The position numbers and the translations under genes are program-made. This document shows, in pieces, positions 29,600 through 40,075 of a DNA stretch of 64,000 nt (positions within the stretch are counted from its first letter, which is position 1; each line of letters opens with the position of its first letter). This DNA comes from Ruficoccus amylovorans. GTDB lineage: Bacteria > Verrucomicrobiota > Verrucomicrobiia > Opitutales > Cerasicoccaceae. The stretch covers positions 1 through 64,000 of the forward strand of contig NZ_JACHVB010000011.1 in assembly GCF_014230085.1 (NCBI RefSeq), in the 5' to 3' direction. A model generated the notes under the pieces. The model did not search any database. It saw nothing but the letters and a program-made list of their open reading frames with translations, and was not told the origin of the DNA.

Positions 29600-29683
29600 C
29601 CAATGGCTTGTGGTTTCTGAACGCATAGACGCTCTGATGCGCGAAGCCATCAAGGCTATTACTCGTTTATATTGAAGTATTTG
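29600..29683 (-). repeat. 84-bp leader repeat, copy 2
   Basis: The second copy of the sequence at 28613-28696 differs at nine positions. It overlaps the last codons of the large terminase gene, whose stop is at 29667. The same-strand, same-distance placement before two short genes suggests one duplicated expression signal. Confidence 0.8.
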
Positions 29684-31478
29684 CAGATTTATCTTCTCCC
29701 TCCACGGCGACCGCTTCGCGCCCGATAATCTTGAGCATGACGGCGGCGACCACGCTCATGGCCTCGCAGTCGAAGAGGTGGTTCGGTCGGCTGCCGATCT
29801 GCTCCCAAATCCACTTGCTGTTCTTTTTAACGCGCTGCTCGGACTCCATGTGCTGGAGGTAGTCCTCGGGGATGTCGCCGGGCACCTGCCACAGCGGAGA
29901 GCCATCGGCGGTATGCTCCCGGCGCAGGCGGGCGAGCACGTCTTTGATCTGGAGGTTCGACCAGTAATGCATCCGGCAGACGAGCCCCCGCGACACCGCG
30001 ATCCGCCGCACCGGCGAGTAGAACCGCTGGACCGAACCCTGCGGTGTTTTATGAACGAAGGTGCTGTGGGCATCACCCATCAGGGCGGTCCAACCGTGGC
30101 GGGCGCACTGGCGGTAAACCTCATAGCTGTTGTACCCGGCATCGACGAATACCAGGCTGTCGTGAACACGGAAACGCTGTTGGATCGCTTCGAGTTCCTC
30201 CCATGTGACCACGCGCTCACACCAGAGCAGGCGCGACGCTCCCTCGGCGGACCATGAACGCACCACGAGGAAGAAGTGGTCCATCTGCACGTCCACGGTG
30301 AGGAAACGCAGGGGCACCAGTGTGACGCCATCAGGGAAGGGGGCGGCGATCACTTTGCCACGCGAACCGAGCGCGGCCTCGTCTGACCAGTCCTCGCCCA
30401 AGCAGTAGGCGCTGGTAGCAATCTCCACCTTGAAATCCTCGACGAACTCCCTCCACGCCAGCGCGAGACGCTTCTGGTAAAACTGCTGAAGAAGGGAGGT
30501 GTCACCCTTGCGGGAGGCGAGCTTGGCGCGGAGGTAAAGCTCAGCCAACTTGCCCCACGACATGGACGCCAGGCTGTTCCAGTGGAAGCCGATGTTTTCC
30601 CGGGCGGCATTCGGGTTCTGGGCAACGAACTGCCCGGTGGCGTTGAGCTTGCGGCGGTGCTCGTCTGAGTCCGCAATCTCATGCTGGCAGTGCGGACAGA
30701 GCAGCACGGTGCTGGACCGGACCTTTTCAAAGTCATATTGCTCCTGCGCGTCCTTGCAGTCCTTTGACCATTCGACGTTTTCCCACAGGAAGGGCTGACG
30801 GGTACCGCACTGCGGGCAGACGAAAGTCCACTCGCGCATGTCGGTGGTTTCAAACTTGCGGTGGGTGTCGTCGTCTTCCTCGCCGCCTTGGCTGAGGAAG
30901 ATGCACTTGCCCAGCCAGCCGAACGCCGTCACACGCGCTTCGGCCTCGGCCATGTGGCCCTGCGGCCAGCGCCACGTCTCGTCACCAATCAGCCAACGGA
31001 TGGACCGACGCTGCAGGTTGGTTTTGTTGTGGGCACCCAGCACCCACAGCGTCATGCCGTTGGCGAAGTGAATCGTGGTGTTGCGACGCTTGTGGCGGTC
31101 GGCAGGAAAGAGCGCCTTCACCGGCTCGCATTCATCGAACAGCTTCTGAAGGCGTGACTCGGACTGGTCCTTGGCGTCCTCGTCGGTCTGGTCCAGCCAG
31201 AGTGTGGGGCCGGGCAGGTTGGCGATGATGTAGCAAAGGGTCAGTTCCGGCCCCGTCGTCTTCGAGGACTGGATGGACGCGAGAATCGACACCACCCGCA
31301 CCTGCGGATCGACGATTGCTTCCATCACTTCCCGCAGCCAGGGGGAATTGTCGGAGCGGAAACGTCCCGGCATGGGCGAATACGGGATGGCCGGGATGTA
31401 CTCCTCGCACCACTGCCACGGCGGACGTCGGTCCGGGGAACGCCAGGCATTGCGCCAGATACTTGAAAGAGACTCCAC
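29667..31478 (-). CDS. terminase large subunit (GpA family)
   Basis: This 603-residue DNA-packaging motor has an ATPase with SIQSSKTT (68-75) as the Walker A region and RWLIGDETWRW (161-171) as Walker B. A zinc ribbon follows (CPQCG 221-225, CPHCQ 261-265), then a nuclease domain with LTVDVQMDHFFLVV and a DAGYNSYEVYRQC segment. This is the lambda gpA-like order. GTG 31478 is preferred to TTG 31484 because a TTGACG box then lies 13 nt upstream. It cuts concatemers and drives DNA into the prohead through the portal. Confidence 0.93.
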   Translation of the reverse strand: MESLSSIWRNAWRSPDRRPPWQWCEEYIPAIPYSPMPGRFRSDNSPWLREVMEAIVDPQVRVVSILASIQSSKTTGPELTLCYIIANLPGPTLWLDQTDEDAKDQSESRLQKLFDECEPVKALFPADRHKRRNTTIHFANGMTLWVLGAHNKTNLQRRSIRWLIGDETWRWPQGHMAEAEARVTAFGWLGKCIFLSQGGEEDDDTHRKFETTDMREWTFVCPQCGTRQPFLWENVEWSKDCKDAQEQYDFEKVRSSTVLLCPHCQHEIADSDEHRRKLNATGQFVAQNPNAARENIGFHWNSLASMSWGKLAELYLRAKLASRKGDTSLLQQFYQKRLALAWREFVEDFKVEIATSAYCLGEDWSDEAALGSRGKVIAAPFPDGVTLVPLRFLTVDVQMDHFFLVVRSWSAEGASRLLWCERVVTWEELEAIQQRFRVHDSLVFVDAGYNSYEVYRQCARHGWTALMGDAHSTFVHKTPQGSVQRFYSPVRRIAVSRGLVCRMHYWSNLQIKDVLARLRREHTADGSPLWQVPGDIPEDYLQHMESEQRVKKNSKWIWEQIGSRPNHLFDCEAMSVVAAVMLKIIGREAVAVEGEDKSANTSI

Positions 31479-31491
31479 GCACAAGGCAGGG

Positions 31492-31907: not shown

Positions 31908-32546
31908 CTACGGCGTGCAGTTCCCACCGCTGTGCAGGGTCTCGCAGACCTCATCAATGGCGGCAGCGCACTCGCGCTGGATGGCGATGGCGTCCAACCC
32001 GGACAGGATCGGCGGCAGTTCCGACTCGAACTTCGCCCGCATCAGCGCGATGGCTTTGCCCACCTGTGTGGTCCACTCGAGACGAACCTGTTCCAACGCC
32101 ACATACTCGCCCTTCAAGATCGCGGTGCGAATCTCGCGTTGCTCAACCTCGGCCAGCAGCTTGCGAGCCTTCAAAGCCTCCTGACGATCGGTGGTGGTTT
32201 TGCCCGGATTGAGGTTGTGATCCCGGATGAACTGACGCCACTCAATGACCGAGTGTGAACTGTTGGCAGCCGGGGCAGGGGCACCCTCCAGCTTGCGCCA
32301 CGCATGAACCGTCTGGCGACTAACCCCGAGGACCGTTGCCAACTCGGTCAAATCCTTTGCCACCGTGATCGAATCGTCCGCCACGGATTCGGCTTTGGCC
32401 TGAATCAAATCGCGTTCGGTCTTCGAGAGCGGTTTGCCCTCCGTGACCTTCTTGACGATGTTGGCGTAGTCCTTGGCGAGGATGCGTTCGGCCACTTCGG
32501 GGGTAATGCCAGACGTTGCTTTGGCGGGGATGTCGGAGGTCTCCAT
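31908..32546 (-). CDS. terminase small subunit
   Basis: This 212-residue DNA-binding packaging protein has a helix-turn-helix in LTELATVLGVSRQTVHAWRKLEGAP near residue 65-90, preceded by ERDLIQAKAESVADDSITVAKD. A helical C-terminal half (EVEQREIRTAILKGEYVALEQVRLEWTTQV) follows, the Nu1-like oligomerisation region. It selects the pac or cos site and recruits the large subunit. ATG 32546 is preceded by a TTGACA box at 13 nt. A plus-strand cargo gene separates it from the large subunit. Confidence 0.85.
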   Translation of the reverse strand: METSDIPAKATSGITPEVAERILAKDYANIVKKVTEGKPLSKTERDLIQAKAESVADDSITVAKDLTELATVLGVSRQTVHAWRKLEGAPAPAANSSHSVIEWRQFIRDHNLNPGKTTTDRQEALKARKLLAEVEQREIRTAILKGEYVALEQVRLEWTTQVGKAIALMRAKFESELPPILSGLDAIAIQRECAAAIDEVCETLHSGGNCTP

Positions 32547-32821: not shown

Positions 32822-33529
32822 TCAATCGATATGGGACCCCGCTGACCCACCCCCTGCCTCGGAGACCGCCTCATGCAGTTCCTGAACGATATCCACCACC
32901 GGTTGAAGCTCATCGATAAGATCAAGCATGTCATCGATGGACGTGTTCTCAAGATAGCCGGAGCGTTTGAGCTTTCCCCACAGCACAACGATGCGCGTCA
33001 CGTGGGGACTCATATTGTCAATGCCACGATCATTCGGCGGGACTGACATTTCCTCAACCTTGGCCACGCGTCCGAGGAGAATGGACTTGGCCAGACGGCG
33101 GGCAGACATCGGTTTTCCGTTTTGCTTGTCGCATTCCTGCAAAGCGACCTGAAGCCATTTCCGTTTTTCCTCCTCCGTTTTAAGGGGAGCAACTTTGCGG
33201 TGATGATCCCAACTCAAATTGTTAACGCGCGTTAACAATTGGACGTTCTTGGCCACACTTGCATAATGTCTGAGCACACCATAATCCAACTTGGTGATGC
33301 GCATGGCGCTCTCGTAGGCGTTACCCCACTCTCCCTTGCCCTCTCCGTAGTTGAGCCAGTCGCCAATCAAGAAGCCGATGGAACGACCGGCTTTCCCGAG
33401 TTTGGCACCCAGTTCGGACCAGGCCTGCTGGTCGAGTTCACACAGGAACTCGATGCCAACAGGACTGATGCGATACGCGGAGGATTCAGTGGTCATCTCG
33501 ATGATGGCAGTCTCGTGCTCTTCGCTCAT
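32822..33529 (-). CDS. hypothetical early phage protein
   Basis: This 235-residue protein (MSEEHETAIIEMTTESSAYRISPVGIEFLCELDQQAWSELGAKLGKAGRS) shows an alternation of helices with a possible ParB-like arrangement (NAYESAMRITKLDYGVLRHYASVAKNV, then WDHHRKVAPLKTEEEKRKWLQ, then MSARRLAKSILL), suggestive of a DNA-binding regulator. I cannot assign a family. ATG 33529 is chosen, with a TTGACA box 13 nt upstream. It overlaps the preceding HTH gene by 44 nt. Confidence 0.7.
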   Translation of the reverse strand: MSEEHETAIIEMTTESSAYRISPVGIEFLCELDQQAWSELGAKLGKAGRSIGFLIGDWLNYGEGKGEWGNAYESAMRITKLDYGVLRHYASVAKNVQLLTRVNNLSWDHHRKVAPLKTEEEKRKWLQVALQECDKQNGKPMSARRLAKSILLGRVAKVEEMSVPPNDRGIDNMSPHVTRIVVLWGKLKRSGYLENTSIDDMLDLIDELQPVVDIVQELHEAVSEAGGGSAGSHID

Positions 33530-34007
33530 AAACAGCACGCGCTGTCAACTTGCGCTGAGCCCGCGAGGGAGGAAGGCCGAGCGCATCGGAGATCGCCACA
33601 CAGCGTTTGCTGACGGTAGCACGGGTGACTCCATACTTCCGTGCGATGTCGGTCATGGAGTTCCCGCCATAGGCCACACCGGTCACCACGGCCAGGCATT
33701 CGGCGGTCAAGCGGATGTTGTCCTGCGCGAGGAGTTCACCAACGATCCGCCGGGCCACCGTGGCCATGCCGAAGTCAGTCTCAGGCCGATGGACATCCTC
33801 GTCATCAACTGAGGCAACCACAGGGGAGCCGCAGCGATCCAGCAGCGTGTCCTGATCGTGTTTGCCGGTGTGGTAAACGGGCAGGTCCGGGCCAGTGATC
33901 CCCATCTTGGCGAGCTGTCTGCGCTCCCGGAGCGAGAGCTTGGCCCATGCGTCGGCATACTCACGATCGCGCTCACGCTGGCGATCTTCGTAATCACCAC
34001 GGCTCAT
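33486..34007 (-). CDS. HTH DNA-binding early protein
   Basis: This 173-residue protein has an N-terminal charged helix (MSRGDYEDRQRERDREYADAWAKLSLRERRQLAKMG) and a C-terminal helix-turn-helix (NSMTDIARKYGVTRATVSKRCVAISDALGL), the shape of sigma-like or repressor HTHs. It overlaps the primase-helicase end by 14 nt and the next gene by 44 nt. It may regulate the phage or load a helicase; I cannot say which. Confidence 0.68.
   Translation of the reverse strand: MSRGDYEDRQRERDREYADAWAKLSLRERRQLAKMGITGPDLPVYHTGKHDQDTLLDRCGSPVVASVDDEDVHRPETDFGMATVARRIVGELLAQDNIRLTAECLAVVTGVAYGGNSMTDIARKYGVTRATVSKRCVAISDALGLPPSRAQRKLTARAVYERRARDCHHRDDH
33543..33548 (-). promoter_or_regulatory. TTGACA box 13 nt before a start codon
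   Basis: GTTGACAGCG, then a 13-nt spacer, then ATG 33529. It lies within the 3' end of the upstream HTH gene. Confidence 0.5.
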
Positions 34008-36159
34008 CGCCCACCTGCCTTTCCGGTTTTTCCCCGCTGTCAAAACCTCCCGTCGCTGTCACGGAAGGGTTAGGGTTTTGCCTGCTGTCAGAAATACCCC
34101 TACTACTCCCCCTTAAGGGGGGAGTAGAGGGTTTTGACAGCGGCTGTCGAAAGTAAGAAGGTTTTGACGACGGGTTTTGACAGCAACGAGAATTCTCGTG
34201 CTGGTACTCGCGCCAGCGACGGCGAACGGTGGAGGTGGAGATGTCGTATTTGGCAGCAAGAGCCGTCTCACGTTCACGGGTAAGACGGGTTAGCCGTTCG
34301 AATTCCACGATGGGCGCAACGGCCTTGGGACGGCCTCCAGAGGACGATTTACCGCCGACGGTGTACTTCCCTGCCGACTCTTCATCCTGCGGCTCTGCGC
34401 ATTGCTGCCAGCAGATCCCGGTCTGCCCGTGGCGCACGAAGATGGCCTCGGTCGTGTTGCCCTGCGTGTCCGTCATCCCCGCCCGGCGGCGACGTTTGCA
34501 CAACTCAAATCGAAACGTGGGCGGCTGGCCCTCAGGCGCTTTCGCCCGCATGAGCACGGCGACTTCCCGCGCCCAGTTGGTCAGGGCCGACGAGCCAAGG
34601 CCACTGTAGGCATAATCCGAGCCCGTCCAATGGCTACGGGCCTTCGAGTCGGACGGCGGCTTGCCGGTGTGGTGCATGAAGCACCAGATGATGCCGGTGC
34701 GCTCGGAGATCGGATTCAACTGTCGCCCGCAGAATTCTGAAATCACTTTCTGCTGGCTGGCATCGTCCCCGATGTAATTGAGGAGCGGGTCTCCCCAGAC
34801 GAGGTCCGGCTTGTGACGCTGAATGAGGATGTCGGCTGTCTTGGCGAAGTCCGCACCGCTGTGAATGGTGTCGCGGTAGAAGATGATATTCTCTTCCAGC
34901 AGGTGGCTGTTATCGTCCTTCAGGCCCATGCCGATACGCACGCCCTGGTACATCTCCGCGAGGTCGCCAATATCGTTCTCGGCCTGAATGATGAAACTCT
35001 TGAGCGGGCGCACGGGGCGAATGTTGAAGACGGGTAAGCCCAGCGCCCACATGACCGCGAGCTGCATGGAGAAGGATGATTTTCCGATGCCGGACTGGCC
35101 CACAATGACGAGGCTCCCACCCCGGCACAGCCAACGGTTGCCCAGCACGTTGTTGGGGTCGTTGCCGGTATCGTAGTCCCCGAGTTGGGACACCCGTAGG
35201 GGATCGGCCAATCCCAGCCCGTCGCACTCGCGTTCCCATGCCTCGAAGGACGGTGGCCCGAGGTTCACGGCAAGGAGCTTCTGAACGGCATCTCCGCGTC
35301 GTCCCCCTGGACAACGCGAAAAGCGCGAGGGATTACGGTTCTGGCTGTCGATGACGAAGCCTTCGGGCAGTGACTGCCAGAGGCGTTCGCGTCGGGCGTG
35401 GTATTCATCGCGGGTCTTCGCCTCCACCCGCACCCAGGCATGGATGCTGTGCCCGCCCGAATCGATCAACGCGGCAATGGGCAGGCCGCTGTCACGCAGA
35501 ATGCGTTCCTGTTCGCCCTTGGGAATGCGGTCACTCTCAATCAGGGTGTGCCGGTACGCCGTCACATCCTTATCCGTGCCGTTGGATTTCTGCGTGACGG
35601 GGTTGATGCGGATGTAGAGACCGTGCCGGGTGGAGAACAGGCGTTCAATGCCCCCCTTGCCCGCCGCCCGCTCCAACCACTGGTCGCGGGTGAAGACGTT
35701 GATGCCGCCGTGCTCGGGGATGGCACGGGTCTCGCCATCGGGCAAGGTTCCCGGCGCGAGCGAGAGGATATCATCGGCCTTGAAGCACGCCTTGAGGAAG
35801 GTTTCAAAGGGGGGCTTCCCGCTGTCAAAACCGTTTTGACGGCGGGTGAAGTTATGATGATCACCCGCCCGAAACGCGACTTTACCAATAGTGGAGCGCA
35901 GCCGAAAGTTGGCGGCGGCAATTTCCTCCTTACAGCTGTCGTGGAAGCAGTGGATCGTCGGGGCGTAGCCGTTCTCGGCGTCCAGATAGACCCGGCAGTC
36001 GCGTTCGCGGCTCGGCGTCGTATGTTTGTGGGCACCGGGGCACTGGCAATAACCCGAATGCTCATAGGTCCAGTCCACCGGCCCCACAACGCCCTCGGCC
36101 ACCTGCCGAAAGTCGGATGGCATCTCGGAAGTGCCCTTCGATGTGTAACGATAAGTCAT
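33994..36159 (-). CDS. phage primase-helicase (RepA-like)
   Basis: This 721-residue replication protein has an N-terminal metal-binding pattern (CxC at 38-40, H44, C71-x-H73-x2-C76). A middle region follows with DSGGHSIHAWVRVEA (233-247) and RFSRCPGGRR, typical of AEP-type primases, and then a RepA-like ATPase with GQSGIGKS (354-361). The C-terminus is low-complexity and has an HTH (RERETALAAKYDISTSTVRRRWREYQ). It is coupled by overlap to the helicase upstream. Its 3' coding part is dense in TTTTGACAGC repeats. It should unwind and prime at the phage origin. Confidence 0.85.
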   Translation of the reverse strand: MTYRYTSKGTSEMPSDFRQVAEGVVGPVDWTYEHSGYCQCPGAHKHTTPSRERDCRVYLDAENGYAPTIHCFHDSCKEEIAAANFRLRSTIGKVAFRAGDHHNFTRRQNGFDSGKPPFETFLKACFKADDILSLAPGTLPDGETRAIPEHGGINVFTRDQWLERAAGKGGIERLFSTRHGLYIRINPVTQKSNGTDKDVTAYRHTLIESDRIPKGEQERILRDSGLPIAALIDSGGHSIHAWVRVEAKTRDEYHARRERLWQSLPEGFVIDSQNRNPSRFSRCPGGRRGDAVQKLLAVNLGPPSFEAWERECDGLGLADPLRVSQLGDYDTGNDPNNVLGNRWLCRGGSLVIVGQSGIGKSSFSMQLAVMWALGLPVFNIRPVRPLKSFIIQAENDIGDLAEMYQGVRIGMGLKDDNSHLLEENIIFYRDTIHSGADFAKTADILIQRHKPDLVWGDPLLNYIGDDASQQKVISEFCGRQLNPISERTGIIWCFMHHTGKPPSDSKARSHWTGSDYAYSGLGSSALTNWAREVAVLMRAKAPEGQPPTFRFELCKRRRRAGMTDTQGNTTEAIFVRHGQTGICWQQCAEPQDEESAGKYTVGGKSSSGGRPKAVAPIVEFERLTRLTRERETALAAKYDISTSTVRRRWREYQHENSRCCQNPSSKPSYFRQPLSKPSTPPLRGSSRGISDSRQNPNPSVTATGGFDSGEKPERQVGDEPW
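34036..34184. repeat. cluster of GTTTTGACAGC repeats on both strands
   Basis: At least six copies or variants of GGTTTTGACAGC lie within 150 bp: GCTGTCAAAACC at 34036, GCTGTCACGG at 34055, GCTGTCAGAAA at 34084, GGTTTTGACAGC at 34130 and 34173, GCTGTCGAAAG at 34143 and GGTTTTGACG at 34160. They occur inside the 3' end of the primase gene in both orientations. The core is that of the TTGACA boxes. This resembles an iteron cluster or repressor-binding array. Confidence 0.7.
35821..35842. repeat. palindrome of two TTTTGAC half-sites
   Basis: The sequence GTCAAAACCGTTTTGAC is a 17-bp perfect inverted repeat with a single central base, flanked by GCT and GGC. It joins two of the same half-sites head to head, the form a dimeric repressor would bind, within the primase-helicase gene. 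Confidence 0.6.
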
Positions 36160-37667
36160 CACATCGCCTTCCGGTTAAAATGTTCATCGAGGAAAAGCTG
36201 GGCTTCCTCGAAGGTGGCCAACTCCGGTTCCGGGTAGTGAAATTTCCGCAACCAGCTCAACTGCTTGGGAGTAGCCAGGCCGTGCTCGCGCCGCATGAAC
36301 AAAAGGTCGAGGATCTTCGAGGCATGTCCCCGGCAGCTCACGCAATCGGTGTCGAACCCCGCCTTGGCTAGTGTGATCAATTGCCGGTCGCTGGGCGGCT
36401 TGCCTTCCCAAGGCAGCTCCGGCTCATAGTCGGCCAATTCCACCGCCTTGAGGCTCAGGCAGAACTCGATGGCATCGATGGTGCGGGCCTTCCGGCGAGC
36501 GGCCTTAACGAGGCGTTCCTCCAGCCGGGACTGGCGCACTTCCTCCACCTCTTCTTCGGCCTCCAGCAGATCGACTTCGCCGCCGCCCGAAAGACGTTCG
36601 CTTAATTCGGTCGTCTCCTCTTCGGAACGGGCGATGAGGCGGGCCGGGCGAATCAACGAATGATCGTCGCTCAGGAACAACGGATCGAGCAGAAGCAGGT
36701 TTTCCTTTCCCTCGGCAATGCGCGTGCCGCGCCCCACCATCTGCTGAAACAGCGACAGGCTTTTTGTGGGGCGCAGGATGAAGACGCAATCGGTCTGGGG
36801 ATGATCCCAACCGGTCGTCAGGAGGGAGGCGTTGGAGACGAGATCATATTCCCCGCGCTCATAAGCCCGCAGTCCCTCGCGGTCGTTGCCATCTACGTGG
36901 ACGGCACGCAATCCTTCCTCGCGGCAAGCTTTCACGAAAGCTTGGCTGGTGGCGATGAGGGGCAGGAAGGCCACAGTGCGACGCCCGGTAGCGTGCTCCG
37001 CAATGAGCCGAGCCGCCTGACGCAAGTGGGGCATGATCACATCGCCCAAATCGCCTTCGTTGTAATCGCCCGCCGTGGTGCGCACCTGCGACAAGTCCAC
37101 CGGCAGGGGCACACTCTTGATGACGATGCGCGAAAGCCAGCCCTCCTTGATCAGACGGGCCAGACCGATCTCGACGGAAATCTTTTCATAGAAACTGCCC
37201 AGCTGGCGACGATCGGAGCGGAACGGGGTGGCTGTCACCCCGAGCACCTTGGCCGACTCGAAGTGCAAGAGCACCTGCGCGGCCATCGCCCCGAGCGTGT
37301 TGCGGTGGGCTTCATCAACGATCACGAGGCCGAAGTAATCCCGTGGCCACTTGTCCAAGCGGCGGCAGATGCTCTGCGTTGTGGCCACCACGACCCGGTC
37401 TCCGAGGAGCGCCTTCGAGTCGGCCATTTCGATACCGGCGAATTCGCCGGCGTACCCGAAATACTTGTCGGCGTTCTGGCGGACGAGTTCTTGCGCGTCG
37501 GCAAGGAACAGACAATTGCCGTTCCAGCCGCGCATCAGGTCAGAAGCGAGGATCGTCTTGCCCGCGCCGGTGGCCGCAACCCCGAGGATGTGGTCATGCT
37601 CCCGAAAATCGCGACGCACCGCTGACAGGAACTCCTGCTGGTAAGGGCGAAGGTCAAAACGGGACAT
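36159..37667 (-). CDS. DEAD/DEAH-box helicase (superfamily 2)
   Basis: This 502-residue protein has AATGAGKT (31-38), DEAH (118-121), GVTATPFRSDRR as motif III-like, and LLTTGWDHPQTDCV with QMVGRGTR as motifs V and VI. The C-terminal part is charged and ends with a coiled-coil-like region. The ATG at 37667 is backed by AGGAGGACGAAG. It ends in a four-base overlap with the primase-helicase and begins by overlapping the SSB-tailed gene. It is likely a phage replication or repair helicase. Confidence 0.92.
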   Translation of the reverse strand: MSRFDLRPYQQEFLSAVRRDFREHDHILGVAATGAGKTILASDLMRGWNGNCLFLADAQELVRQNADKYFGYAGEFAGIEMADSKALLGDRVVVATTQSICRRLDKWPRDYFGLVIVDEAHRNTLGAMAAQVLLHFESAKVLGVTATPFRSDRRQLGSFYEKISVEIGLARLIKEGWLSRIVIKSVPLPVDLSQVRTTAGDYNEGDLGDVIMPHLRQAARLIAEHATGRRTVAFLPLIATSQAFVKACREEGLRAVHVDGNDREGLRAYERGEYDLVSNASLLTTGWDHPQTDCVFILRPTKSLSLFQQMVGRGTRIAEGKENLLLLDPLFLSDDHSLIRPARLIARSEEETTELSERLSGGGEVDLLEAEEEVEEVRQSRLEERLVKAARRKARTIDAIEFCLSLKAVELADYEPELPWEGKPPSDRQLITLAKAGFDTDCVSCRGHASKILDLLFMRREHGLATPKQLSWLRKFHYPEPELATFEEAQLFLDEHFNRKAM

Positions 37668-38091
37668 CTTCGTCCTCCTTCGGTTGTGCCTGAGCCGTAG
37701 CGGGCGGGGTTGTCTTGAGGGTGGTAGTCGGCACGTTGTCCGTGATCCACAACTCCACCTTGTTGCTCTTCTTGCCCTGGTATTCCTCGATGCGAAGCCG
37801 GGCATGGCCCTGACGTCCTTCGAGAGCGGAAGCGTTCAGTTCGACTTCCTCGCCCTCGACCACCCGGTCGCCAATGGCCTTGCGGAAGGTATCGATCTTC
37901 CAGAAACTCGATTCGGTCGCGACGAGGTAATCGTAGAGGTAGACGCCGTGTCCTTCCACCTCGAGCTTCAGCTTGATCATTTCGTCACCAGCCTTGGACA
38001 GGGTCTCCGACGCCTCGATCACAGTGACGAGGTAGTCGCCATTGGGCACGAAGCGCGGCAGGTTGTCGGCATTTTGAGAGGTGTACTTCAT
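37654..38091 (-). CDS. phage protein with SSB-like acidic C-terminus
   Basis: This 145-residue protein (MKYTSQNADNLPRFVPNGDYLVTVIEASETLSKAGDEMIKLKLEVEGHG) has a beta-strand-rich body resembling DUF669-type phage proteins. It ends KEDEDVPF, almost the same tip as the host SSB (DEDVPF), which is the peptide that recruits partner proteins. It overlaps the helicase start. I infer a single-strand-DNA-binding or recombination role, supported by the neighbouring Sak4-like ATPase. Confidence 0.75.
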   Translation of the reverse strand: MKYTSQNADNLPRFVPNGDYLVTVIEASETLSKAGDEMIKLKLEVEGHGVYLYDYLVATESSFWKIDTFRKAIGDRVVEGEEVELNASALEGRQGHARLRIEEYQGKKSNKVELWITDNVPTTTLKTTPPATAQAQPKEDEDVPF

Positions 38092-38291
38092 GACCGTGAA
38101 GAGGGGTTGGAGTTGGGGGCGGGCAGCCGGGTGGCTGAAGATTCAACCGTCTTCGCTGCTTTCCGGCATGAACCGGAACCATGAGCCTCAAATCTGGCCT
38201 GCATCAGCGCACTGGCCTCACTGAGGTCGGGATCGTAGTCGCGGAGGCGCTCGGCCCGCTGCTCATAGGCGTAAAAGTCTTCCTCCATCAT
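38088..38291 (-). CDS. small early phage protein (67 aa)
   Basis: The protein begins MMEEDFYAYEQRAERLRDYDPDLSEASALMQARFEAHGSGS and is helical, with no recognised motif. ATG 38291 has AGGAGGT five bases upstream; it overlaps the Sak4 stop and its own stop overlaps the next gene. Tight coupling suggests co-translation with both. Confidence 0.7.
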   Translation of the reverse strand: MMEEDFYAYEQRAERLRDYDPDLSEASALMQARFEAHGSGSCRKAAKTVESSATRLPAPNSNPSSRS

Positions 38292-39280
38292 GCCACACCT
38301 CCTTCGGAAACTTTCTTCGAGAGGAAGCTGATGGCCCGGGCGGCCTGTTCCATCGTGAGATCGTCCCAGCTTTCCGCGCCCTCCAACGCCTCGGCATCTA
38401 GCCACTGGAACAGCTTGGCCATTTGCTCCTGCCCGCAGCCAAGTTGCTGCCAGAGACCCTGGATGTTTTTGATCTGTTGCTGAGTGGCAGGCTTGCCGCT
38501 GGCGGGAGGGGTGGACGGGGTCGCACTGGGAGCAGGCAGTGTTCCCGTTGCAAGGAAGACATGAGCGATGGCCTCAAACTCCATCGGAAGCACATCATCG
38601 AGGCCGTGACGGTTCTTGGCATCGAAGGCCGCGCAATGGGCAGTGTAGATGCGGCGCTCCTTGCCGCCGACAGCCTTCTTTCTTCCATCGGTCTCCGTGA
38701 CCTTCGTGAAGTAGTTCACGAACAGAAGCAGGTCACACCATTCCTTAATGAGAGGGGCGCACTGCTTGGAGAGCTTCAACTCGTAGCGGTCATAGGCCCC
38801 GGCGGCGTCGGGCTGCTCAAACTTGCGGATGGTGGAATGAGCCACCATGACAAGGTGCATGCCCCGGGAGCGGAGCGCTTCTAGCGACTGGAGGAAACGC
38901 GAGAATTCCTCCGATAGATAGGTGTAGCCCTTGCCATACCCGAAATCCTCTATGCCGTCCTTATGGGATTTGCGGCAGATGTGCTCGATCAGAAGGCGCT
39001 CCAACCAGTCCACCGTGTCGATGACCAGCGTCTGGAAATGGTGATCGCTCTGGCCAAGCTGGACGATGAGGTCGAGTATGTCTTCCCAGTTCTGCGGCTG
39101 GGCAAAACGGGTAACGTTCAGGTGGATAGTGCCGCCCTCGGTGTCGAGGAAGACCGGTTCAGGGAAAGCGGCGGCGAGCGTGCTTTTGCCGATGCCTTCG
39201 GGGCCGTAGATGACGACCCGCTGAGGTTTTTCGACCTTACCGGTGATAAGCGGCAGGCCCGTTGCGGAGTTATCTTGCAT
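38288..39280 (-). CDS. Sak4-like phage RecA-type ATPase
   Basis: This 330-residue protein is of the AAA_24/Sak4 type: VVIYGPEGIGKSTLAAAFPEPVFLDTEGG gives a Walker A at 26-33, and LVIDTVD (85-91) is the Walker B. A C-terminal region has helices with ATQQQIKNIQGLWQQLG. Sak4-like proteins support homologous recombination of phage DNA with SSB-type partners. The start chosen is ATG 39280; no good ribosome site is seen. An upstream in-frame GTT continues to a TTGACA. Confidence 0.8.
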   Translation of the reverse strand: MQDNSATGLPLITGKVEKPQRVVIYGPEGIGKSTLAAAFPEPVFLDTEGGTIHLNVTRFAQPQNWEDILDLIVQLGQSDHHFQTLVIDTVDWLERLLIEHICRKSHKDGIEDFGYGKGYTYLSEEFSRFLQSLEALRSRGMHLVMVAHSTIRKFEQPDAAGAYDRYELKLSKQCAPLIKEWCDLLLFVNYFTKVTETDGRKKAVGGKERRIYTAHCAAFDAKNRHGLDDVLPMEFEAIAHVFLATGTLPAPSATPSTPPASGKPATQQQIKNIQGLWQQLGCGQEQMAKLFQWLDAEALEGAESWDDLTMEQAARAISFLSKKVSEGGVA

Positions 39281-39457
39281 GGTTACTGGCGGTTGAATGC
39301 CCGGATATGCCCGGAACCCATGGACAGAAGTTGCCCGGGGCGTAACGGGGTCGGTGTCAACCATGCCTCATCAAAATACCGACCTAGAACGGCGCGTAGC
39401 CACGGTTACATACAGGCGAAATGCCCATGCTCTCTGAACATCCCGAAGTCGGTATGC

Positions 39458-39568: not shown

Positions 39569-39943
39569 TTACTTGAGCTTGTCGTAGGCCCCATTAGCCA
39601 CCTTGGCGATGACCGCATAACTGATCCGCTGTTCTTTCGAGACACGGTTCATCGACTTTTCATGCAACAACCCCTTGATGTGATCACGAAGCTCCGGCGT
39701 GACCTTGGTGTGCTTACGCCGTTGGGGCAGGGCTGCTGTCTCACGCTGAAGACGAACGCCATACTTCTCGATCAACGCCTCCACCAGTGCCTTGGGCGTA
39801 TCAAACCCGCTCTGCTTGACGAGAGTGGCAAGCTTGGCCTGCGCCGCCTTCCGTTTTCTCTTTTGCTCCAACAGCTGCTGCTTCTGCTTTTGCAGTTTCT
39901 TCTTCTCCTCTTCGAGGCGTTTCAATTCGTTGTCAATGTTCAT
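39569..39943 (-). CDS. coiled-coil DNA-binding-like protein
   Basis: This 124-residue protein starts MNIDNELKRLEEEKKKLQKQKQQLLEQKRKRKAAQAKLATLVKQSG, a strong basic coiled coil. A region with TKVTPELRDHIKGLLHEKSMNRVSKEQRISYAVIAKVANGAYDK may be a small nucleic-acid-binding domain. I do not know the family. It is the right-most prophage-like gene, near the presumed boundary. No strong ribosome site is seen before the ATG. Confidence 0.65.
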   Translation of the reverse strand: MNIDNELKRLEEEKKKLQKQKQQLLEQKRKRKAAQAKLATLVKQSGFDTPKALVEALIEKYGVRLQRETAALPQRRKHTKVTPELRDHIKGLLHEKSMNRVSKEQRISYAVIAKVANGAYDKLK

Positions 39944-40052
39944 AGAAATAGAATGTATTCGTATAGGTGCTATGATAATCGCGTTATTTCATTAACACAT
40001 TATATTACTAAACAAGCTATCGACTAAGGAACTACTTTATAGATCAACATAG

Positions 40053-40075
40053 AAAAGCGGGGTTAAATGCCGCTT
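40053..40075 (-). terminator. terminator after the hydroxyacid dehydrogenase gene
   Basis: On the minus strand AAGCGG, an 8-nt loop and CCCGCTT are followed by TTT, just past the stop at 40074. It separates this operon from the prophage. Confidence 0.65.

Follow-up and report, generated by a model that had tools for sequence, protein, structure and literature searches.

The origin of replication of the Streptococcus thermophilus phage Sfi21 was reportedly described by Foley et al. in 1998. The GenBank record of this phage annotates an origin of replication at 34487-34784, directly after the primase gene of a module ordered Sak4, helicase, SSB and primase, and its sequence runs from TTAGTTACTTAGTTAC through an AT-rich palindrome to GTAACTAAGTAACTAA, with inverted TTAGTTAC words. 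The record and the available part of PMC6356513 describe it as a 302-bp noncoding element and a phage inhibitory sequence. For the SaPI satellites, the C-terminal domain of Rep is stated to recognise iterons (PMC7581432, accessible in part, citing Ubeda et al. 2007), and the organisation of PICI origins has been called unique among known bacterial replicons in the accessible text of PMC6092414. In the PLE satellites of Vibrio cholerae, according to the sections of PMC8263062 at hand, the binding domain of the initiator and the origin have been swapped.

The locus compared here with these systems lies in the window, i.e., the whole stretch of 64,000 nucleotides that was analysed, within a prophage of a Verrucomicrobia genome which carries portal, terminase and replication-module genes (Table 1). 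The right edge of the prophage appears at 39943-40074, beside a D-isomer 2-hydroxyacid dehydrogenase gene. A cluster of short repeats at the 3' end of the primase-helicase open reading frame (ORF) is, in our judgement, likely to be the replication origin of this prophage, of the Sfi21/SaPI kind and bound by the C-terminal helix-turn-helix (HTH) of the primase-helicase itself. Read along the gene strand, the array consists of a word, a second word, an inner word, a hairpin, the inverted inner word, a partial inverted word and an inverted word.

Table 1. Coordinates of the proposed origin array and of neighbouring features in the window
Feature	Position	Strand	Remarks
Boxed gene starts (examples)	19017, 24952, 27107, 31484, 32546, 33538	-	window 18-40 kb
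Large terminase	29667-31484		
Small terminase	31908-32546		
Downstream HTH gene	33486-34007	-	start ATG at 34007; conserved beside the array, not word-specific
Primase-helicase ORF	33994-36162	-	PHROG primase, AAA_25 helicase
Whole proposed origin array	34030-34190	.	ssDNA fold z = -6.1
Outer right inverted word	34036-34046	+	exact
Partial inverted word GCTGTCAC	34055-34062	+	
Inner right inverted word GCTGTCAGAAA	34084-34094	+	its outer six bases form covarying pairs with the inner left word
Central perfect hairpin CTACTCCCCC-CTTAA-GGGGGAGTAG	34103-34127	.	
Inner left word	34131-34141	-	exact; left arm of the large inverted repeat
Weak inverted word GCTGTCGAAAG	34143-34153	+	2 mismatches; only in the window and L001 in the alignment of six copies
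Word copy 2, GTCGTCAAAAC	34161-34171	-	two mismatches; copy 1 is 13 bp away; conserved across the six aligned copies
Word copy 1, GCTGTCAAAAC on the gene strand	34174-34184	-	exact
C-terminal HTH of the primase-helicase	34186-34308	-	residues 619-659; proposed word-binding domain
17-bp palindrome GTCAAAACCGTTTTGAC	35824-35840	.	same half-site as the array; inside the coding part
DEAD/ResIII-type helicase	36159-37805	-	replication module
DUF669 / single-strand-binding-protein-like gene	37654-38091	-	
Sak4-like annealing protein	38288-39364	-	

Like the Sfi21 origin, the array follows the primase of the replication module directly on its 3' side and its short repeats are inverted about a central palindrome, but the Sfi21 centre is AT-rich while the 38 nt which separate the inner words of the window are 55% GC and form a hairpin, the primase and helicase of Sfi21 are separate genes while those of the window are fused, and the Sfi21 origin is noncoding while the array is read through by an ORF whose tail evolves as noncoding sequence. 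In comparison to SaPI and other PICI elements, as far as the accessible parts of the sources describe them, iterons lying directly 3' of the initiator-helicase gene and the presence of two iteron sets are shared, whereas PICI iterons flank an AT-rich region and these elements are phage satellites, the window element being a phage with terminase and portal genes; recognition of the iterons by the C-terminal part, as in SaPI, would agree with the covariation in the window lineage. The helicase Cch2 of SCCmec binds, through its C-terminal domain, repeats located just downstream of the cch2 gene and is comparable in this respect, but it belongs to another helicase family with AAGTG iterons, and replication in vivo was not shown in the part of PMC7581432 that was available. 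The PLE satellites are similar in that the DNA-binding domain of the initiator and the origin covary and are swapped as a module, and differ in having a RepA_N initiator with an N-terminal binding domain, semi-palindromic iterons of ~30 bp and no AEP-helicase fusion (PMC7145576 and PMC8263062, both in the parts available). In the open-access literature, no description of this array architecture was found for Verrucomicrobia phages. An AT-rich melting region was not found at the array, the lowest 40-nt window nearby having 42.5% GC, and GC skew, which the initial annotation had named as a check, showed no clear switch at 34 kb.

The word GTTTTGACAGC was found in seven copies on both strands within 34036-34184, of which three were exact (GTTTTGACAGC or GCTGTCAAAAC at 34036, 34131 and 34174, a span of 149 bp) and four carried two mismatches (34075, 34084, 34143 and 34161). 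The cluster noticed in the initial annotation is thus real and its local density is beyond chance, although the count given there of at least six copies in 150 bp holds when two mismatches are allowed and fails for exact copies. The loose word pattern was found 21 times in the whole window in comparison to 17.9 expected, showing no enrichment, and the signal is therefore local. The maximum number of TTTTGAC/GTCAAAA per 150 bp was 4 in the window in comparison to 2 in 300 first-order Markov simulations, and the exact 11-mer occurred 4 times in the gene, in comparison to which 20,000 synonymous-codon shuffles produced 0.042 copies on average and 2 at most. Two further copies of the primase are carried by contigs C14 and C45 of this genome, and genomes G001 and G003 contain others. 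Of the 13 exact word copies in the 4.5-Mb genome, ten fell within three related prophage primase loci (binomial P ~3e-26), with 4, 3 and 3 copies for C11 (the window), C14 and C45, respectively, and all six of the close homologues possess the array, so that its absence from homologous primase genes, which had been named as a refutation, was not observed. As a separate observation, one genome harbours three related primase loci (C11, C14 and C45) which share their array word. On contig C1 of G004, four primase homologues were located at 4499499, 4535219, 4570939 and 4606659 with identical match statistics and exactly 35,720-bp spacing, representing either a tandem prophage array or an assembly artefact.

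The last ~61 codons of the primase-helicase ORF evolve as non-coding DNA, the frame being merely open. In three comparisons the ratio of synonymous to nonsynonymous changed codons was 181:44, 200:50 and 205:76 in the gene body in comparison to 1:3, 4:24 and 5:25, respectively, in the tail, with Fisher P values of 0.03, 6e-12 (the comparison with L025) and 2e-9, and none of the three showed a third-position excess among the tail substitutions. The AlphaFold model, of which only the HTH region and the disordered tail were used, was of low overall quality (whole-protein mean pLDDT 50.9) with an alignment of nine sequences; the tail had a pLDDT of 23-30 without secondary structure, and residues 619-659 were modelled as a helical HTH-like unit with a pLDDT of ~67-86 over most of its length. 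The functional primase-helicase thus probably ends near residue 660, the remainder being read-through of the array, and the placement of the cluster in the primase-helicase gene by the initial annotation is correct for the open frame but not for the functional protein. In C45 and G001 the array is contained in a different small ORF, located past the primase stop, and the primase of L071 ends at the array, which is noncoding there. The small ORF found here in some relatives is absent from the window phage, and the primase frame consequently reads on through the proposed origin.

Among the relatives, for which the search listed 80 of 249, the arrangement of direct words, central hairpin and inverted words just 3' of the primase is kept while the words differ (CTGTCAAAA, GGCTCAAAA, TTGCCAAAA, CTGACAAAA, GCTGCAAAA and others), and within one phage all word copies change together. 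The word was AGTGTCAAAAC in L072 and L073, CTGTCAAAAC in L074, TTGCCAAAA in L071, GGCTCAAAA in L075 and L003 (the array of the latter being seen in part, as the contig ends inside it), TGCTCAAAA in L078, CGGGGAAA in L017, GGGGATTAGG in L011, GCTGCAAAAA in L151 and its kin, CTGACAAAA in L196, CCGGCACCAC in L153, GTATCCCG/TGTCCCG in L154, and TTTGAACCC in L161; L002 keeps only worn words. The hairpins were replaced wholesale yet remained palindromic, with seven different ones occupying one slot in 16 of the 17 relatives examined; for the remaining relative, L232, the script chose a neighbouring palindrome and the GATTCTCTAAAGAGAATC of the slot follows directly after it. The inverted arms covary, with 89.9% standard pairs and 11 double changes in comparison to 2.3 in shuffled arms; none of 500 shuffles reached as high a value and slid controls were far lower.

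The position of the layout was evaluated in 118 loci, reduced to 81 after dereplication and the requirement of at least 250 nt after the stop, by a strict detector which demanded a perfect stem of 9 or more, inverted words on its flanks and one or more additional copies. Near the primase stop it scored in 13 of the 81 loci (68.7 kb) in comparison to 5 hits in the other 709.5 kb (P ~1e-10); it detected no such layout in 68 of the 81, including most of the group with 41-46% identity, and it misses clear cases such as C14 and L151. Repeat density at the primase end reached P<=0.05 in 21 of 65 usable loci in comparison to 3.2 expected. Four phages in these position statistics, BCASJ1c, Javan273, Lugh and Sfi21, were hand-picked, Sfi21 for its known origin; subtracting by hand left 17 of 61 loci for repeat density (without the four) and 10 of 78 for the strict detector (without the three which scored). 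In Bacillus BCASJ1c, Streptococcus Javan273 and Faecalibacterium Lugh, the primase is followed by a noncoding gap of 267-341 bp which contains repeats, and Javan273 has a perfect hairpin, AATATCTCTCTTC-CA-GAAGAGAGATATT, between GGGACA and TGTCCC words. In viral contigs L051/L064, L050/L059 and L065, TGTCAAAA words were observed in inverted or tandem arrays, hairpin-centred in two cases, which are possibly further origins with similar words. A search with TGTCAAAACTGTCAAAA, which we take to be a proteobacterial motif, returned 23 stretches with no clear kin upon inspection of the local sequence, and a plasmid search gave two distant matches only.

Four closely related pairs which differ in the word (L153/L154, L071/L078, L003/L074 and L072/L074) indicate which protein may read it, since what diverges together with the array, in surrounding DNA mostly ~85-100% identical, is either the C-terminal DNA-binding region of the primase or a small neighbouring ORF. 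Word and C-terminal domain changed together in the first three pairs. For L153/L154, the primases align in blocks of ~93-100% identity up to residue ~600, 40 of the 88 C-terminal columns match, and the DNA is mostly 94-100% identical again from ~180 nt past the stop; the diverging part is a different C-terminal domain. For L071/L078, the DNA is ~83-100% identical except for the primase C-terminus (0.53-0.55) and the array, and L003/L074 showed the same pattern up to the end of the L003 contig. In L072/L074 identity falls most (0.70-0.75) in the small ORF which lies between primase and array, and less in the array itself, the word being altered only in its first bases with the HTH unchanged. 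As the HTH is unchanged in this pair and another domain is found in L153/L154, lineages may have different readers of the word.

For the lineage of the window, these sequence comparisons point to the C-terminal HTH as the reader. The helix residue following T[I/V/L] was R in nine loci with TGTC-type words (including the worn L002), K in three loci with GCTC words and N in one locus with TGCC, corresponding to [CG]TGTCAAAA, [GT]GCTCAAAA and TTGCCAAAA, respectively. In a second clade, seven loci with CTGCAAAA have N, K or T at this position and L196, with CTGACAAAA, has R; the words of L241 and L242 (both N) are TGCTGCAAA, and L201 (R, mixed words) and L199 (R, without a clear array) fit the table poorly. 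The table comprises 25 loci, with the helices of L078, L003, L241 and L242 read by eye, and the association is confounded by the relatedness of the loci. Elsewhere, a ~75-residue domain (xxMPPxxH...SEV...W.G) was noted beside the array in 39 distinct sequences, as an extension of the primase C-terminus or encoded by an ORF of its own (L010, L072, L084-L093, L123, L125, L151, L153, L154, L186, L187, L189 and L202-L243), and may be an alternative word-binding domain; it is absent from the window, the search having found the C45 copy only. We see the chances as even that phages with AEP primase-helicases use a common origin design in Verrucomicrobia, and probably in Firmicutes too, with the C-terminal DNA-binding region and the array as a specificity cassette replaced as a unit, and with a residue-to-word code whereby R, K and N in the recognition helix go together with TGTC, GCTC and TGCC before AAAA. 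The swapping in PLE, as presented in the accessible text of its sources, is the nearest precedent for such behaviour.

It is unlikely that the words are an operator array through which a phage repressor or the adjacent HTH protein (33486-34007) controls transcription. The array does lie directly upstream of an HTH gene which is conserved beside it, but the product of this gene barely changes when the word does, being nearly identical in L072 and L074; the DNA of L071 and L078 is 87-100% identical over the downstream kilobase; and in L153 and L154 the downstream gene is not the HTH gene, its first ~300 nt being 94-100% identical. Shared repressor operators should also disfavour three prophages with the same word in one genome, as observed here, and the scan of the array for promoters and terminators remained at chance level, with no sigma-70-like promoter above chance. 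A related proposal in the initial annotation, that the array serves the same regulator as boxes at start codons, found no support, while its reading of a phage origin with iterons was well supported at the level of sequence by where the array lies, how it is built, its covariation and its synteny with the origin annotated in a phage. Of 25 prophage ORFs, 8 have TTGAC[AG] within the 32 nt preceding the start (0.37 expected), as has 1 of 20 host-side ORFs; the box, TTGACA or TTGACG, is mostly 19-20 nt upstream of the start codon, and it is also present in L070, L080, L071 and L075. Boxes and array words do not change together between phages, for TTGACA is kept in L071 (2 of 16 ORFs) and L075 (1 of 12), where the array words are TTGCCAAAA and GGCTCAAAA without TTGACA, and the shared TTGACA is thus no sign of a common regulator. 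In the stretches analysed, boxes were found in none of 13 ORFs in L078 and none of 10 in L074. The TTGACA box looks like a gene-start signal of the phage in its own right.

A structural RNA or single-stranded DNA hairpin (terminator, attenuator or single-strand initiation site), for which the fold alone would matter, is quite improbable, even though the fold is very stable (z = -6.1), its arms covary and its central palindromes are swapped. The same word also occurs in direct copies outside the covarying inner arms (L072, for instance, has three GTGTCAAAA), which favours binding by a protein over a role of the fold alone; in addition, no T tract or terminator-like site was found at the array, and the Rfam scan gave only two sub-threshold matches to miRNA families (E 0.8). 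The hairpin may nevertheless act as a structural element within the origin. As the gene of the small terminase is 1.5 kb away, the array might be a packaging site (pac/cos) recognised by this protein, but such a role is very improbable: the array follows the primase, the terminase being ~1.1-3.4 kb off in BCASJ1c, Javan273, Lugh and Castelnaud, the Sfi21 stretch of 24.0-40.7 kb with the origin lists no terminase gene, and word changes go along with changes in the C-terminal domains of the primase. That the repeats arose by chance, or through codon bias in a repetitive protein tail, to which the frame open through the array would lend itself, can be practically dismissed given the synonymous shuffles, the substitution pattern and low pLDDT of the tail and the noncoding array of L071, in agreement with the initial annotation, which held that coding constraint alone does not account for both orientations and named codon usage, now found not to yield the copies, as what would refute its reading.

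The claimed 17-bp palindrome at 35824 proved exact, with outer half-sites at 35821-35831 (exact) and 35833-35843 (one mismatch), and it arose in 28 of the 20,000 synonymous-codon shuffles. It consists of two inward-facing words separated by one base, i.e., the orientation of the inner words without the hairpin. It is exact in four of the six close copies (window, C14, C45 and G001), has one half changed in L001, is lost in L002, and is absent from L003 and from more distant relatives. On the simplest reading it would be a second putative site for the same protein, lineage-specific and perhaps serving autoregulation. A search of the genome for close word pairs found none, its pattern being too strict for the one-base spacing. 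Among viral contigs, the exact palindrome was found in 17 stretches, of which two (L030 and L043) are primase relatives and the rest, without a related gene, look like chance occurrences.

Under the origin reading, the primase-helicase would bind the words through its C-terminal HTH (residues 619-659), oligomers would load head-to-head on both sides of the hairpin, the DNA would open at the hairpin, perhaps by cruciform extrusion, and the enzyme would then unwind and prime in both directions; we infer the origin activity, the binding protein and the bidirectional loading alike. Phage origins have rarely been mapped outside model systems, and a layout which is recognisable despite full sequence change may allow origin calling in uncultured phages, while the natural word-helix pairs allow a direct test of how primase-helicases recognise origins. 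The presence of a related organisation among ordinary phages also bears on the uniqueness claimed for PICIs in the available portion of PMC6092414. If the cassette proposal is true, replacement of the cassette would likely be driven by escape from elements which parasitise or cut the origin, as described for PLE.
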